A stretch of 62,500 nucleotides of DNA, taken from Opitutales bacterium. Its GTDB lineage: Bacteria > Verrucomicrobiota > Verrucomicrobiia > Opitutales > UBA953. Location: assembly GCA_030725715.1 (NCBI GenBank), contig JANRFG010000015.1:1-62500 (forward strand), given 5' to 3'. The translations under genes were made by a program, and so were the position numbers. The notes under the pieces are model-generated. The model worked only from the letters and a program-made list of their open reading frames with translations, ran no database searches and had not been told where the DNA came from. Shown in pieces: positions 25,700 to 31,180 of this stretch (position 1 is its first letter; the number at the start of each line of letters is the position of its first letter).

Positions 25700-25736
25700 T
25701 CAAAAGAAGCAGGCCGTCCGGCATCGGACGGCCTGC
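25700..25736 (-). terminator. Intrinsic terminator of amt-1
   Basis: A perfect 12-bp stem GCAGGCCGTCCG (25709-25720) / CGGACGGCCTGC (25725-25736) with a 4-nt loop. Read leftward it is followed by TTCTTTTGAG. It lies 24 bp after the amt-1 stop. Confidence 0.85.
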
Positions 25737-25760: not shown

Positions 25761-27236
25761 TCAGGAGTTGTGGCTGTAACCTTCTTCGCCGTGGTCCGAG
25801 ATATCGAGGCCGCGGGCCTCTTCTTCTTCGGTCGGGCGGAGGCCGATGAGGGCCTTGATCACGTAGGCGAGGATCGCGGTGGCGACCAGGGAGATCAGCA
25901 GGGTGATACCGATCGCCTTGAACTGTTCGGTGAGCAGGGTCTTGCCGACGACGTCCTTGAGGTTCGTGTTCAGGTTGCCGTTGACGTCGCCCGAGGCGAG
26001 GACGCCGGTCACGATGGCCCCGAGGGTGCCGCCGACCGCGTGGACGCCGAAGGTGTCGAGCGCGTCGTCATAGCCCAGCTTGGACTTCATGTAGACGACG
26101 GCCAGGAAGGGCACCACGCCGGCGAGGACGCCGATCAGGACCGCCGAGCTGGCGCTCACGAAGCCTGCGGCCGGAGTGATCACGACGAGGCCGGCGACCG
26201 CGCCCGAGCAGAGGCCCAGGATGCTGGCGTGCTTGCGGAGGACCCATTCGAGGGCGCCCCAGGTGAAGGCGGCGACGCCGGCGGCGAGCGTGGTGGTCAT
26301 GAAGGCCTGGGCGGCGACGCCGTCGGCGGAGAGGGCCGAGCCGGCGTTGAAGCCGTACCAACCGACCCAGAGCATGCCGGTGCCGATGGCGCAGAGGACC
26401 ATGCTGTGCGGGGTCATGGGCTTCTTGCCGAAACCGATGCGGGGTCCGAGGATGATGCAGAGCAGGAGCGCGGACCAGCCCGAGGTCATGTGGACGACCG
26501 TGCCGCCGGCGAAGTCGATCGCCTTGATGGCGGCCTTGGCGTTCCAGACACCGTTCATCTCGCCGGTGATGCCCCAGATGTGGTGCGCCATCGGGAAGTA
26601 GACGAGGAACATCCAGCCGAGCATGAAGAGCATGACCGCGGAGAACTTCATGCGCTCGGCGATGGCGCCGACGATGAGGGCCGGGGTGATGATCGCGAAC
26701 ATCAGCTGGAACATCGAGAACACGTTCTGGGAGATCCAGTAGGCGTAATCGCCGTTCGGGGCGCTGGTGACGCCGTCCAGGAAGAAGAATTCGCTGCCGC
26801 CGAAGATCCTGCCGAGGAAGGTGCCGTCGAAGCTCTTGCCGAAGACCAGGGAGTAACCCACGGCCCACCAGAGGATCGCCACCATGCCGGCCAGGCCGAA
26901 GCACTGGGCGACCACGGAGAGGATGTTCTTGGAGCGCACCAGACCGCCGTAGAAGAGGAAGAGGCCGGGCAGCGTCATGAAGAGCACCAGGGCGGCGCAC
27001 ACCATGATGAAGGCGTTGTGGCCCGGGCCCGGGGAAGCGGCGATCGGACCGGCGGCGACCTTGTCGTCGCCCGCCTTCGGGCCCGCGTTGTTCACGTAGG
27101 CTTCGAGATCGGCCACGCGCTGTTCAAGGGCGGCCGCCGCGGGGGCGGGTTTAGCGTCAGCGGGAGCGGCCTGCTGTCCCGCGAGGGGGGAGGTCAGGGC
27201 ACATAGGGTCAGGAGGAGGGCGGAGAGAAATCTCAT
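25761..27236 (-). CDS. amt: Ammonium transporter (Amt family), copy 1
   Basis: A 491-residue ammonium channel. A signal peptide (MRFLSALLLTLCALTSPLAG) is followed by a short predicted coiled coil (ALEQRVADLEAYVNN, about 35-50), which is absent from the third copy, then eleven TM helices starting at FIMVCAALVLFMTLPGLFLF. The twin-histidine pore residues are present in HMTSGWSALLLC and GVHAVGGTLGAI. The aromatic vestibule is seen in MFQLMFAIITPALI and HHIWG. The C-terminal tail ends with GLDISDHGEEGYSHNS, the P-II-contacting type. The promoter is a sigma-54 site 20 nt upstream. No glnK gene is adjacent. Confidence 0.95.
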   Translation of the reverse strand: MRFLSALLLTLCALTSPLAGQQAAPADAKPAPAAAALEQRVADLEAYVNNAGPKAGDDKVAAGPIAASPGPGHNAFIMVCAALVLFMTLPGLFLFYGGLVRSKNILSVVAQCFGLAGMVAILWWAVGYSLVFGKSFDGTFLGRIFGGSEFFFLDGVTSAPNGDYAYWISQNVFSMFQLMFAIITPALIVGAIAERMKFSAVMLFMLGWMFLVYFPMAHHIWGITGEMNGVWNAKAAIKAIDFAGGTVVHMTSGWSALLLCIILGPRIGFGKKPMTPHSMVLCAIGTGMLWVGWYGFNAGSALSADGVAAQAFMTTTLAAGVAAFTWGALEWVLRKHASILGLCSGAVAGLVVITPAAGFVSASSAVLIGVLAGVVPFLAVVYMKSKLGYDDALDTFGVHAVGGTLGAIVTGVLASGDVNGNLNTNLKDVVGKTLLTEQFKAIGITLLISLVATAILAYVIKALIGLRPTEEEEARGLDISDHGEEGYSHNS

Positions 27237-27253
27237 GGCGGTTCGCCCCCTGA

Positions 27254-27271
27254 TTGCATTTAGCGTGCCAA
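27254..27271 (-). promoter_or_regulatory. Sigma-54 (RpoN) promoter of amt-1
   Basis: The minus strand reads TTGGCACG-CTAA-ATGCAA, with the -24 GG and -12 GC exactly 10 nt apart as required for sigma-54. The only departure from consensus is ATGC for TTGC. The GC lies about 20 nt before the ATG at 27236, so the transcript would have a leader of only about 8 nt. Confidence 0.75.
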
Positions 27272-27293
27272 GACTGATTTTAAGCAGCCCGAA

Positions 27294-27323
27294 ACAAAAA
27301 GGGCCGTCTTGCGACGGCCCTTT
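27294..27323 (-). terminator. Intrinsic terminator of amt-2
   Basis: Stem AAAGGGCCGTC (27298-27308) / GACGGCCCTTT (27313-27323). On the minus strand the loop is GCAA (GNRA) and a T run follows. It is 24 bp after the amt-2 stop, so the amt genes are transcribed separately. Confidence 0.92.
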
Positions 27324-27347
27324 GGGGGAATTTATGAGTTTCAGGGC

Positions 27348-28763
27348 TTACTTGGCCGACTTCACGAAGTCCGGGTAGGCTTCGTTGCCGTGTTCGCCGA
27401 GGTCCAGGCCTCCGGTCTCTTCTTCGGCGCTCACCCGCAGACCCATGACAGCCTTGATGATGAGGAAGAGGACGTAGGCGAAGACGAAGGTGAAGAGACC
27501 GACGGCCGCCACCCCGATGAGCTGGCTGACGAGCTGGGCCATGCCGGCCATGGCCCCGAAGAGTCCGACGCACAGGGTGCCCCAGATACCGCAGACCAGG
27601 TGGACGGAGAGCGCTCCGACCGGGTCATCGAGCTTAAGCTTGTCGAAGAAGAACACCGAGAGGACCACGATCACGCCCGAGGACAGGCCGATGATGATGG
27701 AGGAGTTCATGTTCATCTGGTCGGCGCCGGCGGTGATGCCCACCAGGCCGGCGAGGATGCCGTTGAGCACCATCGAGAGGTCGGGCTTCTTGATGATGGC
27801 CCAGGAGGCGACCATCGAGCCGACCGCGCCGGCGGCGGCCGCGATCGACGTGGTCACGAGCGTCAGGGAGACCAGGCCGGGTTCGGCGGAAAGGACCGAG
27901 CCGCCGTTGAAGCCGAACCAGCCGAGCCAGAGGAGAAAGACGCCGATCGTGGCGAGGGGCATGCTGTGTCCGGGCATCGGGACGGCCTTGCCGTCGGCAC
28001 GGTAGCGGCCGAGGCGGGGTCCGAGCAGCAGGACGCCGGCGAGGGCGCCCCAGCCGCCGACGGAGTGAACCAGGGTCGAGCCGGCGAAATCATAGAAGGG
28101 CACTTCCATGGTGTTCAGCCAGCCATTGCCCCACTTCCACATGCCGGTCATCGGGTAGCTGATGGCGACGAACAGCGTCGAGAAGACGAGGAAGCTGGAG
28201 AGCTTCACGCGTTCGGCGACGGCGCCGGAGACGATCGTGGCGGCGGTGGCGGCGAACATGGCCTGGAAGAGGAAGTCCGTCCAGTAGGTGTAGCCGGCGT
28301 TGTAGACGTCGGTGAGCGCGGCGACGTCATCCGTCACCGAGACCCCGAAGCCGGCGAAGCCGAACCACTTTCCGGCGTAGTCCGTTCCCGGATACATGAG
28401 GTTGAATCCGACGACGGCGTAGGTCAGGATGCCGATGCAAGGAATCAGGCTGTTCTTGAACAGGATATTGACGGTGTTCTTCGAACGTGTGAGTCCGGTC
28501 TCGAGCGTCGCGAAGCCGAGGTGCATGATGAACACCAGTCCGGCGGAGAGCATCATCCACGTGTTGTTCACCGTGAAGGTGGAATAACCGGGCGATTCCT
28601 TGAAGGCCGCGACATCCTTGTACTTCGGCGCCGCCGGCGCCGCCGCGGCCGCCGCGGCGGGAGGATTGTCCGCCGGAGCCGCGGCGGGGGCGGTCTGCGC
28701 CCAGGACAGGCAGGGCACTGCCGCCAGGGCGAGGATGGTGAGAGTTCGTAGCAGGGATTTCAT
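27348..28763 (-). CDS. amt: Ammonium transporter (Amt family), copy 2
   Basis: A 471-residue ammonium channel, the most divergent of the three. A signal peptide (about 1-22) is followed by an Ala/Pro-rich linker and VNNTWMMLSAGLVFIMHLGFA, where the other copies have LFLFYGG-type TM1 ends. The pore histidines are in LVHSVGGWGALAG and VHLVCGIWGTL, and the aromatic gate is in LFQAMFAATAA. The tail ends in LDLGEHGNEAYPDF, close to the P-II-contacting C-terminus of the family. Sequence differences from copies 1 and 3 suggest a distinct affinity or regulation. It has its own sigma-54 promoter and its own terminator. An MSLLRT-type alternative start was not supported. Confidence 0.94.
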   Translation of the reverse strand: MKSLLRTLTILALAAVPCLSWAQTAPAAAPADNPPAAAAAAAPAAPKYKDVAAFKESPGYSTFTVNNTWMMLSAGLVFIMHLGFATLETGLTRSKNTVNILFKNSLIPCIGILTYAVVGFNLMYPGTDYAGKWFGFAGFGVSVTDDVAALTDVYNAGYTYWTDFLFQAMFAATAATIVSGAVAERVKLSSFLVFSTLFVAISYPMTGMWKWGNGWLNTMEVPFYDFAGSTLVHSVGGWGALAGVLLLGPRLGRYRADGKAVPMPGHSMPLATIGVFLLWLGWFGFNGGSVLSAEPGLVSLTLVTTSIAAAAGAVGSMVASWAIIKKPDLSMVLNGILAGLVGITAGADQMNMNSSIIIGLSSGVIVVLSVFFFDKLKLDDPVGALSVHLVCGIWGTLCVGLFGAMAGMAQLVSQLIGVAAVGLFTFVFAYVLFLIIKAVMGLRVSAEEETGGLDLGEHGNEAYPDFVKSAK

Positions 28764-28777
28764 GGCAGAGACGCTTT

Positions 28778-28794
28778 CGCAACCCCCGTGCCAA
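28778..28794 (-). promoter_or_regulatory. Sigma-54 (RpoN) promoter of amt-2
   Basis: The minus strand reads TTGGCACG-GGGG-TTGCG, a full match to the -24/-12 consensus with correct GG-N10-GC spacing. The -12 GC lies 16 nt before the ATG at 28763, leaving a leader of roughly 5 nt. Confidence 0.88.
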
Positions 28795-28856
28795 CCCCCG
28801 AGATCTCCTTTTTGCCCCTGATTGTGCTTAAATTAGGACGAACGCCTTCACCTGGG

Positions 28857-28874
28857 GTGCTCTTTTAAAAGCAC
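28857..28874. repeat. 18-bp imperfect palindrome between amt-3 and amt-2
   Basis: GTGCTCTTTTAAAAGCAC is a near-palindrome (GTGCT ... AGCAC) lying about 63 bp upstream of the amt-2 -24 element. That is a position where sigma-54 activators bind. The half-site order is the reverse of the NtrC consensus (GCAC ... GTGC). It could instead be a weak amt-3 terminator, but no T run follows. Confidence 0.4.
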
Positions 28875-28903
28875 GCCACCGGTGAGCTTACTGAAAAAGA
28901 GGC

Positions 28904-30184
28904 TTAATTCGCGTTGTAACCTTCTTCGCCGTGGTCGGCGATGTCCAGGCCCTGCGCTTCCGCTTCTTCCGAGGGACGCAGTCCGATGGTCACGGCGACG
29001 AGCTTCGCGATGATCCAGGTCATGCCGAGCGAGACGACGATGCAAAGCAGCATGGCCGTCAGCTGGCCCTTGAGCAGGCCCTGGGCGACGAGCTTGCCGC
29101 CGGCTTCGTTGACGGATCCGTCCATGAGCAGGGCGGTCGCGAGCGCGCCGATCGTCCCGCCGACGCCGTGCACGCCGAAGGTGTCGAGGGCGTCATCGTA
29201 GCCGAACTTCGGCTTGAGCACCGAGCAGGCCCAGTAGGAGATGCCACCCGCAAGGATGCCGATGATCACGGCCGAACCGCCGGAGACGAAGCCCGCGGCG
29301 TTCGTCACGGTGGCGAGTCCGGCGATCGCGCCCGAGCAGAGACCGAGCACCGAGACCTTCCCGCGGTGGAGCTTCTCGACGAGCGCCCACATCATCGTGG
29401 CCGTGGCGGCGCCGAGCGTCGTGGTCAGGAAGGCCTGCAGGGCCACGCCGTCGGCGGCGAGGGCCGAGCCGGCGTTGAAGCCGTACCAGCCCGCCCAGAG
29501 CAGGCCGGTGCCGATCACGCAGAGGACCATGCTGTGCGGAGGCATCGCGCGCTTGCCGAAGCCGATGCGCGGTCCGATGAGCACGCAGAGGAGCAGGGCC
29601 GACCAGCCCGAGGTCATGTGCACGACGATGCCGCCGGCGAAGTCCGCCGCCTTGAAGGCGGCGCCCGCGTTGGCGAGGCCGGCGAAGTCGCCGGTGGCGC
29701 CCCAGACGGCGTGCGCGACGGGGTAATAGACGAATACCGTCCAGAGGAAGGAGAAGAGCAGCACGGCGGAGAATTTCATGCGTTCGGCGACGGCACCGAT
29801 GATGAGCGCGGGCGTGATCGCCGCGAACATGGCCTGGAAGAGGGCGAAGGTGCCGGAAGAAATCCCGGCGGCGTAGGCGGTGTCGGGCGTGAAGCCGAGG
29901 CCGGCGAAGCCCAGGTGCTCGCTGCCCCCGAAGAGGTGTCCGAGGAACCCGCCCGCGAAGTTCTTGCCGAAGACGAAGCTGTAGCCGAAGGCCCACCACA
30001 TGAGGATGCCCATGGCGGTCAGCGCCAGGCACTGCGCCGCGACCGAGAGCACGTTCTTGCCGCGGACGAGCCCGCCGTAGAAAAGGAAGAGCCCCGGGAT
30101 GCACATCATCAGGACCAAGGCGGTGCTGATCAGGACCCAGACGTTATCGGCGGTGTTCGGCGCAGGAGTGGCAGAAATAAGCAT
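28904..30184 (-). CDS. amt: Ammonium transporter (Amt family), copy 3
   Basis: A 426-residue channel of standard length without a cleaved leader: MLISATPAPNTADNVWVL leads straight into TM1 (LVLMMCIPGLFLFYGGLVRG). The twin histidines are in HMTSGWSALLLCV and GVHGVGGTIGAL. The aromatic residues of the outer vestibule are in LFQAMFAAITPALI, and the tryptophan in AHAVWG. It is close to copy 1 (shared C-terminus GLDIADHGEEGYNAN), so the two look like a recent duplication, while copy 2 is older. A perfect sigma-54 promoter lies 16 nt before the start. No glnB/glnK gene is encoded in the window. Confidence 0.95.
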   Translation of the reverse strand: MLISATPAPNTADNVWVLISTALVLMMCIPGLFLFYGGLVRGKNVLSVAAQCLALTAMGILMWWAFGYSFVFGKNFAGGFLGHLFGGSEHLGFAGLGFTPDTAYAAGISSGTFALFQAMFAAITPALIIGAVAERMKFSAVLLFSFLWTVFVYYPVAHAVWGATGDFAGLANAGAAFKAADFAGGIVVHMTSGWSALLLCVLIGPRIGFGKRAMPPHSMVLCVIGTGLLWAGWYGFNAGSALAADGVALQAFLTTTLGAATATMMWALVEKLHRGKVSVLGLCSGAIAGLATVTNAAGFVSGGSAVIIGILAGGISYWACSVLKPKFGYDDALDTFGVHGVGGTIGALATALLMDGSVNEAGGKLVAQGLLKGQLTAMLLCIVVSLGMTWIIAKLVAVTIGLRPSEEAEAQGLDIADHGEEGYNAN

Positions 30185-30197
30185 GTTGCGACATATT

Positions 30198-30215
30198 AAG
30201 CAAAAATCGTGCCAT
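30198..30215 (-). promoter_or_regulatory. Sigma-54 (RpoN) promoter of amt-3
   Basis: The minus strand reads ATGGCACG-ATTT-TTGCTT, an essentially perfect -24/-12 element with GG-N10-GC spacing. The -12 GC lies 16 nt before the ATG at 30184, again predicting a leader of about 5 nt. The divergent gene at 30281 is on the other side. Confidence 0.88.
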
Positions 30216-30280: not shown

Positions 30281-31180
30281 ATGAAACGGCTGCACAAAGT
30301 TGAGCAAATCGGCTTAATTTGCTCATTATTACTCATCTCCACGGAGTCCCTCGGCCAGACCCAGCCCAAGCCTTGGCTGCTGATGGCCGACGCGCAGCAT
30401 CGCGCCGCCGATGTCATCTCCCACTCGGGCGGCGTGACGGGTTCCTTCGGTCGTTCCCGCTCCGGCGCCGAACTGATCTACCAGACCGAGGACCGCGCCA
30501 TCGACCTGGAGTGGTATCGCTATGCGCACGACTTTTCCGGCGCGGTCGCCGGGACAGATCGCTCTTACGGTGACACGCAGGACCTGATGCTGTCCGGCTT
30601 CCGTCAGTGGAAGCTGTCCGACAAGTATGCGGGGCAGGTGATCTATGGGCTGGAGCTCGCCGCCGAAGAATCGGTCGGCCTGGCCGATGGCTTCCGCTGG
30701 GGCCTGGGCGGCGCCTTGCGCTGGCAGCCCGACGACGAGACCGACGTCGCGCTCGGTCTGATGTTCCAGGACCGCTTCGAGAACTCGATCCTGCCGGTCC
30801 CTTACGTGAAGGCCTTCTGGCGTCCGTGCCGTTACGCCGAAGTCGAACTCCGCGCGACGGGCCTGCAGAACGGCATCATTTTCCGTGGCTTCCCCACGGG
30901 TGACCGCGCGACGACGGTGGACATGTCGGTGGCCTACGAGACCCTCAACTTCCGTCTCGCCGACGCCGCTTACGGCAGCCGGGCCGTCATCGTCGGCGAA
31001 GTGCCGATCCGCTTCGGCGTCACGCAATTCCTCGAGGCTTCCGGCACTTGGTTCGTGCGCGCGCAGTTCGAGTGGGTGCCTTTCGCCCGGCATAGCTTCA
31101 AGCATGACGGCGAGACCCAAGGAGCCTTTCAGCCGGGCGCGACCTGGGGTCTGGGCGGACGCGTCGGCGCCCGCTTCTGA
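30281..31180 (+). CDS. Outer-membrane beta-barrel-type protein of unknown function (DUF6268-like)
   Basis: A 299-residue protein with a Lys-rich start and hydrophobic signal segment (GLICSLLLISTESLGQ, cleaved near residue 26). The rest alternates short amphipathic strands ending in aromatic residues (YRYAHDF, GFRWGLGGALRWQP, VKAFWRP, AQFEWVPF) and terminates in GGRVGARF, a C-terminal Phe typical of outer-membrane barrels inserted by BamA. I recall a verrucomicrobial family, DUF6268, with this appearance; that identification is from memory. The gene is divergent from amt-3. The upstream 96 bp is AT-rich and includes AATAATTTATTTATATACG just before the ATG, which may contain its promoter. Confidence 0.65.
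   Translation: MKRLHKVEQIGLICSLLLISTESLGQTQPKPWLLMADAQHRAADVISHSGGVTGSFGRSRSGAELIYQTEDRAIDLEWYRYAHDFSGAVAGTDRSYGDTQDLMLSGFRQWKLSDKYAGQVIYGLELAAEESVGLADGFRWGLGGALRWQPDDETDVALGLMFQDRFENSILPVPYVKAFWRPCRYAEVELRATGLQNGIIFRGFPTGDRATTVDMSVAYETLNFRLADAAYGSRAVIVGEVPIRFGVTQFLEASGTWFVRAQFEWVPFARHSFKHDGETQGAFQPGATWGLGGRVGARF

Follow-up and report, generated by a model that had tools for sequence, protein, structure and literature searches.

Sigma-54 promoters at a conserved distance from the start codons of ammonium transporter genes in an Opitutales bacterium and its family, with predicted near-leaderless messages

The window analyzed here is a stretch of 62,500 nt (bases 1-62500 of contig C15) from the genome of an Opitutales bacterium, the host (1.93 Mb in 37 contigs, 94.9% complete). 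It contains three ammonium transporter genes, amt-1, amt-2, and amt-3, each preceded on its own strand by a −24/−12 site of the sigma-54 (RpoN) type. We consider it likely that these sites serve RpoN as promoters within a nitrogen regulon, that a palindrome of 16 bp, TGC-N10-GCA, is the probable target of the NtrC-like regulator L005, that transcription starts 13 nt past the C of the −12 box, and that the amt messages would be leaderless or nearly so. From the sites, the rpoN and activator genes, a 16-nt distance between the −12 box and the start codon, a pyrimidine-purine step, and the palindrome, all read from the sequence, we infer the binding of L005 to the palindrome, the exact starts, leaderless translation, and the response to nitrogen. 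Compared with the known NtrC/sigma-54 regulon, the predicted departures are the spacing between promoter and start codon, the step at the predicted initiator, and the upstream element of 16 bp. The genes and their sites are the following:

28904-30184, minus strand: amt-1, ammonium transporter, 426 aa (PF00909, 2e-110; TIGR00836 above cut-off)
30200-30214, minus strand: sigma-54 −24/−12 site of amt-1, TGGCACG-ATTT-TTGC, perfect; the A of the ATG is 16 nt past the −12 C
27348-28763, minus strand: amt-2, ammonium transporter, 471 aa, with a signal-peptide-like start (TIGR00836 above cut-off)
28779-28793, minus strand: sigma-54 −24/−12 site of amt-2, TGGCACG-GGGG-TTGC, perfect; the A of the ATG is 16 nt past the −12 C
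25761-27236, minus strand: amt-3, ammonium transporter, 491 aa, with a signal-peptide-like start unlike that of amt-2 (Pfam and NCBIfam)
27256-27270, minus strand: sigma-54 −24/−12 site of amt-3, TGGCACG-CTAA-ATGC, one mismatch; the A of the ATG is 20 nt past the −12 C

All three products score above the PF00909 cut-off of Pfam, and a PF00909 search of the host genome found no further Amt gene. The sites agree with the RpoN consensus TGGCAC-N5-TTGC and its GG-N10-GC core (consensus taken from PMC3333780), in the case of amt-3 with one mismatch. They lie where the original prediction had placed them, and its distance of 10 nt between GG and GC was obtained again at each site. Perfect matches to TGGCACGN4TTGC occur only twice in the 1.93-Mb genome, and these two are the sites of amt-1 and amt-2. 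The genes for RpoN and an NtrC-type activator, which had been proposed as a check, are both present: there is one rpoN gene (L001) with the activator-interacting, core-binding, and DNA-binding domains (PF04552, PF04963, PF00309), and there are two NtrC-family activators of REC-AAA-Fis architecture (L005 on G000:C18, and L006; PF00158). The GAFTGA loop, a feature of AAA+ sigma-54 activators, is found in both translations, and three additional PF00158 matches are all partial (20-35 bits). A single PII gene was found, on a contig other than that of the amt genes.

For the host family, amt matches were obtained in 50 of 61 genomes, and the main amt region was taken from 48 of the 49 amt-bearing relatives; G171 (all rows) and the fragment rows on side contigs of G159, G166, G176, and G182 were omitted. 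A site was called good if it scored at least 13.5 of 15.5 and lay no more than 400 nt upstream of the aligned part of the amt row. Good sites were found in 82 of the 85 rows scored, and the remaining three were truncated by contig ends; because the best site in each stretch was taken, a few may be due to chance, as seems to be the case for L219. Two amt-1 fragments (L191, L201) and one row at a contig edge (L197) were excluded. It is this conservation across the host family that decides, on sequence grounds, that the amt sites exceed chance. One further amt-1 copy is a remnant (L175, G068:C5:78650-78877), a fragment with an internal TGA that still has a sigma-54-like site upstream; it is counted among the 82 rows and the 30 amt-1 loci, but not among the 81 genes used below for the ATG distances.

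The original prediction is right in its main point, the three sigma-54 promoters. Such an arrangement is common in the host genus and not unusual as had been supposed: in 35 scored amt regions of the genus, two amt genes with a site near the ATG were present in 25 and three in four. The distance from an amt stop codon to the next sigma-54 site ranges from 69 to 240 nt (34 pairs). As to the proposal that the three genes are independently transcribed under RpoN, a separate RpoN promoter for each gene is well supported by rpoN, the two NtrC-family activators, and the recurring sites, whereas the independence of transcription is something that we only infer.

The feature that sets these promoters apart is their distance to the start codon. 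In the host genome, the distance from the −12 C to the ATG is 16 nt not only for amt-1 and amt-2, but also for the L005 gene and for a gene encoding an outer-membrane-like protein (L034, named by eye); it is 20 nt for amt-3, 13 nt for an ATP-grasp-like gene (L018), 7 or 13 nt for an open reading frame (ORF) of 97 residues (L015), and 50 nt for the PII gene. Altogether, eight of the 24 genomic sites with at most one mismatch were read as lying just 5' of a plausible gene. Among the 81 amt genes of the host family, 69, including amt-1 and amt-2 of the window, have an in-frame ATG exactly 16 nt past the −12 C, and five of these 69 have a second ATG at 13 nt. The 15 nt in between take 16 forms in 28 amt-1 genes (on average 5.5 mismatches between forms) and 31 forms in 41 amt-2/3 genes (7.2 mismatches), 47 different intervals in total. 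Compared across these genes, the length of the interval is conserved, although its sequence drifts, in contrast to the widely varying stop-to-site distance given above.

The short distance extends beyond the amt genes. In 132 genomes of the order, perfect sites followed by an ATG 5-34 nt downstream had this ATG at 16-21 nt in 14 of 19 matches from the host's own family (10 genomes) and in 31 of 109 matches elsewhere, where an even distribution would give 20% and some sites count twice because two ATGs follow. A search with TGGCACR in the 61 family genomes placed 35 of 74 matches on amt-free contigs at 16-21 nt, again with 20% expected if even. For amt loci of other lineages, 31 were chosen from the 80 matches listed, and 12 of them had a best site of at least 13.5; none of these 12 sites has an in-frame start at 16 nt, the nearest in-frame ATG being 41 to 413 nt away.

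A second regularity concerns the interval itself. A pyrimidine-purine step is present at positions 12-13 past the −12 C in 68 of the 69 amt genes, compared with 29 of 69 at the next best position; it is C-A in amt-1 and mostly C-G or T-G in amt-2/3. Eighteen promoters of ntrC-like genes (six from the loci described above and 12 additional ones; 17 were picked from matches to site plus element) vary in the position of the ATG, which is at 13 in five cases, at 14 in two, at 15 in two, and at 16 in nine. All 18 have CA at positions 12-13, and only nine have the step at −4/−3 relative to the ATG. Start-codon context as the main cause of a purine 3 nt before the ATG was therefore rejected, as the step stays in place while the ATG moves. 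For the same reason, the transcription start (+1) is most likely the purine 13 nt past the −12 C. The predicted starts in the window, derived from promoter geometry, are:

30187, minus strand: predicted +1 of amt-1 (C-A step), leader AAC, 3 nt
28766, minus strand: predicted +1 of amt-2 (T-G step), leader GCC, 3 nt
27243-27244, minus strand: predicted +1 of amt-3, leader 7-8 nt

By this rule, the amt and ntrC-like mRNAs should have leaders of 0-3 nt (7-8 nt for amt-3 of the window), and the ntrC-like messages of five relatives would begin at the A of the AUG.

Upstream of the sites, a palindromic element was revealed by a search for TGC-Nk-GCA with k from 4 to 18, within 200 nt upstream of the 82 amt sites and with 100 single-base shuffles as control. 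The form with k = 10 is present in 56 of the 82 regions (shuffle mean 3.5, maximum 8), whereas every other k reaches at most seven. The 17-bp spacing of the E. coli type was rejected as a candidate, N11 being present in one region. Most elements of amt-2/3 start 79-80 nt upstream of the site, and most of those of amt-1 start 90-94 or 109-113 nt upstream of it. The combination of site and element has 90 matches in the 61 genomes, distributed over 41 of them, vs. seven for the reversed control. In the host genome there are exactly three, those of amt-1, amt-2, and the ntrC-like gene itself, the last of which fits autoregulation; in relatives, the pair is also found 5' of PII and glutamine synthetase-like genes (the latter named by eye). 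The elements of the window are:

30291-30306, minus strand: enhancer-like element of amt-1, TGCTCAACTTTGTGCA, starting about 92 nt upstream of the site and falling among the first codons of the divergent gene
30310-30325, minus strand: degenerate second element of amt-1, at a position (109-113 nt before the site) that holds a strict element in 15 of 30 amt-1 loci
28858-28873, minus strand: enhancer-like element of amt-2, TGCTTTTAAAAGAGCA, starting about 80 nt before the site and matching the conserved 16-bp element
27280-27286, minus strand: half-element TGCTTAA adjoining the −24 box of amt-3, present in three of five amt-2-bearing loci
30281-31180, plus strand: divergent gene (ORF), 299 aa, signal-peptide-like start, with the amt-1 element within its first codons

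A divergent ORF is present at all 30 amt-1 loci, and the strict element lies inside it at 25 of them. The 299-aa protein of the window has no match in Pfam or NCBIfam. Outside the amt regions, the 97-residue ORF of the host (L015, site at G000:C6:91469-91483) has a one-mismatch site with a TGCCTAATTTTAGGCA element starting only 36 nt upstream of it.

In mechanistic terms, the NtrC-like regulator L005 would bind the palindrome upstream of the amt-1 and amt-2 sites and, once bound, open the RpoN promoter under nitrogen limitation. Transcription would probably begin just upstream of the AUG, by 3 nt for amt-1 and amt-2 and by 7-8 nt for amt-3, and the messages would then be translated as leaderless or near-leaderless mRNAs.

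Several observations weigh against this reading. The genomes are related, so that the counts are not independent. With at most one mismatch, there are 24 matches to the site pattern genome-wide vs. 26 for the reversed control pattern, and with at most two mismatches the window has 15 vs. 21.7 expected; as loose sites do not exceed the control, conservation was used in place of site counts. Twelve of the 81 amt genes lack a start at 16 nt, 11 of them having an ATG at 11-21 nt and L219 none nearby, and of 11 such genes examined, six have the step at 12-13 and five lack it. The amt-3 gene of the window, one of these five, fits least, with 20 nt to the ATG, no pyrimidine-purine step at 12-13, and no strict element of its own within 200 nt. 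The strict element is likewise missing from 26 of the 82 amt upstream regions, and none precedes the PII site or L034 of the host. Two members of the regulon have ordinary distances, 48-50 nt for PII and 27-54 nt for the glutamine synthetase-like genes; given these real leaders, short leaders are not a regulon-wide rule. In the five ntrC-like promoters where the ATG is at 13, one and the same A serves as the purine of the step and as the first base of the start codon. The best NCBIfam match of L005, TIGR01818 (ntrC), stays below the equivalog cut-off (491.8 vs. 558.6 bits), and the protein is therefore called NtrC-like. Finally, two sequence patterns for the 3' end of the 16S rRNA were found neither in the host genome nor in 38 genomes of the same genus; this end may be absent, masked, or different.

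The alternative that survives best, which we nevertheless regard as unlikely, is that these are ordinary sigma-54 promoters and that their tight fit to the ATG was inherited from a few ancestors, without function. All loci come from one family and the amt-1-class intervals resemble each other, but 47 different intervals hold one length, and the dissimilar intervals of amt-1 and amt-2/3 share both the 16 nt and the step at 12-13. Furthermore, the distance is also short for the ntrC-like gene and for L034, and the excess at 16-21 nt is found on amt-free contigs, too. Less probable still, and in our estimate quite improbable, are real sites combined with working transcripts that come from a promoter further upstream and have normal leaders. 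The GGGGG before the ATG of amt-3 would suit such transcripts; however, a scan, which covers E. coli-type promoters only, reported no sigma-70-like promoter before the three genes, and the step at 12-13 follows the −12 box. Chance matches to the −24/−12 consensus can practically be dismissed, because, despite the lack of overall enrichment with one or two mismatches, the only two perfect matches of the genome stand before amt genes and such sites keep recurring in the host family.

Promoters of the sigma-54 type are the standard case of remote, activator-driven control, and if a whole family ties its start codon to the −12 box, a polymerase that depends strictly on an activator would be shown to supply messages for leaderless translation. 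The ntrC-like genes, with the ATG at the predicted +1, +2, +3, or +4, constitute a natural series on the leader bases needed by the ribosome, and the likely activator site provides a rule for locating the nitrogen regulon in the host group. A bolder extension, which we offer as a tentative possibility, is a single regulon that is split by leader length. The sigma-54 messages of the amt and activator genes would start at most 3 nt from the AUG, whereas those of PII and glutamine synthetase would keep their leaders, and a starved cell could translate the messages for uptake and regulation by the leaderless route and the others by ordinary initiation. Moreover, the activator, sitting within the opening codons of the divergent gene, would shut this gene down as amt-1 is turned on.

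The NtrC/RpoN nitrogen regulon of enterobacteria includes glnK-amtB, glnA, and ntrBC. The host family resembles it in the combination of an RpoN site, an upstream palindrome, and a gene for an NtrC-type activator, and also in its targets, as amt, PII, glutamine synthetase-like (named by eye), and activator genes carry the pair. It differs in that the amt and ntrC-like genes of the host are predicted to be nearly leaderless and that PII is on a contig apart from amt. The spacing of the element differs as well, 16 bp with TGC-N10-GCA in the host family vs. the 17-bp TGCACCAnnnTGGTGCA described for NtrC of E. coli (PMC8743547). In Deinococcus-Thermus, a −10 motif adjoins the ORF and gives rise to leaderless mRNA (PMC12340547); the promoter core is likewise a few bp from the start codon, but it is a −10 motif and not the −12 box of an activator-dependent sigma-54 promoter. 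Akkermansia and strain IMCC26134, which belong to the same phylum as the host (Verrucomicrobia), make little use of Shine-Dalgarno pairing, and rRNA-mRNA pairing has been predicted for them; short leaders are not tied to sigma-54 promoters in that account (PMC10783764). A matrix-based survey across classes predicted a sigma-54 regulon with some nitrogen genes in Opitutia, similar to the host family, and neither "ammonium transporter" nor "start codon" appears as a term in its main text (PMC12316311). In Sinorhizobium meliloti, both leaderless genes and sigma-54 promoters have been mapped, and single leaderless sigma-54 cases may be listed there (PMC3616915). At the level of titles and abstract openings, the papers found on leaderless genes with sigma-54, Verrucomicrobia, or Opitut did not describe leaderless sigma-54 messages as the feature of a family, which is no proof of absence.

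The terminator scan revealed two hairpins next to the amt genes:

27298-27323, minus strand: terminator-like hairpin after amt-2, 11-bp stem and T run
25709-25736, minus strand: terminator-like hairpin after amt-3

Of the two terminators that the original prediction had assigned to amt-2 and amt-1, the first was thus recovered, whereas no terminator was found after amt-1 on the minus strand; the scan yielded five on both strands vs. 3.4 expected and serves as a guide only. The palindrome at 28858-28873 may be what had been taken for the amt-1 terminator and is better read as a putative enhancer.

The history of the third gene would explain its poor fit. In 28 genes of the same genus with the ATG at 16 nt, the body is that of amt-3 (83-95% identity to amt-3 of the window), but the first 69 nt are 61-93% identical to amt-2 of the window vs. 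32-45% to amt-3. In the five amt-2-bearing loci, that promoter and signal peptide sit on amt-2; the signal peptide of amt-3 is a different one, its sigma-54 site lies 13-21 nt from the ATG, and a strict element is absent. Most simply, this would mean that the body of amt-2 was placed downstream of the existing promoter and signal-peptide region, and that amt-3 acquired a promoter anew. Promoter and signal peptide of amt-2 in the window (27236-28793) match those carried by the second amt gene of relatives with two such genes (L174-L207), whose body is that of amt-3; the inserted gene has apparently captured both. The best NCBIfam match of amt-2 is TIGR03644 ("marine subtype"), yet below its cut-off. 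The closest named relative of amt-2 among the matches listed is from a metagenome-assembled genome of Cephaloticoccus sp. (76% identity), and one from an Opitutaceae bacterium (48%) is also listed.

As a test of general leaderlessness in the host genome, Shine-Dalgarno-like tetramers were counted upstream of the ATG of 104 ORFs picked mechanically. There are 18 over the nine offsets of 5-13 nt (2.0 each) vs. 24 over the 16 offsets of 29-44 nt (1.5 each), and TANNNT has no clear peak upstream of the same ORFs; the set includes spurious ORFs and carries no firm claim on genome-wide leaderlessness. CTAG-, TTAG-, or TATA-like motifs were seen by eye 10-25 nt upstream of many start codons in the window, where Shine-Dalgarno-like tetramers are few, a hint that short leaders may be common in the host genome.

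Two further groups of sites were noticed in the host family. In the host genus, the gene of a membrane-anchored protein that is AsmA-like by eye (L239, L247, L254, L256, L258, L259, L266) is preceded at 20-21 nt by a conserved sigma-54 site; these ORFs were read as 152-260 residues, and some may be truncated where the stretch ends. In genus g2, which had no amt match in eight of eight sampled genomes, near-perfect sites are located 13-20 nt before chaperone and protease genes. Named by eye, these are dnaK-like (L234, L252), htpG-like (L231, L232, L253, L263, L269), clpB/clpC-like (L230, L233, L265), clpP-like (L264), and McsA-like (L235). The 2025 survey cited above discusses chaperones among the sigma-54 targets, as well as CXXC proteins, in Opitutia (PMC12316311). 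The g2 set looks like a putative RpoN-driven heat-shock regulon with short leaders.

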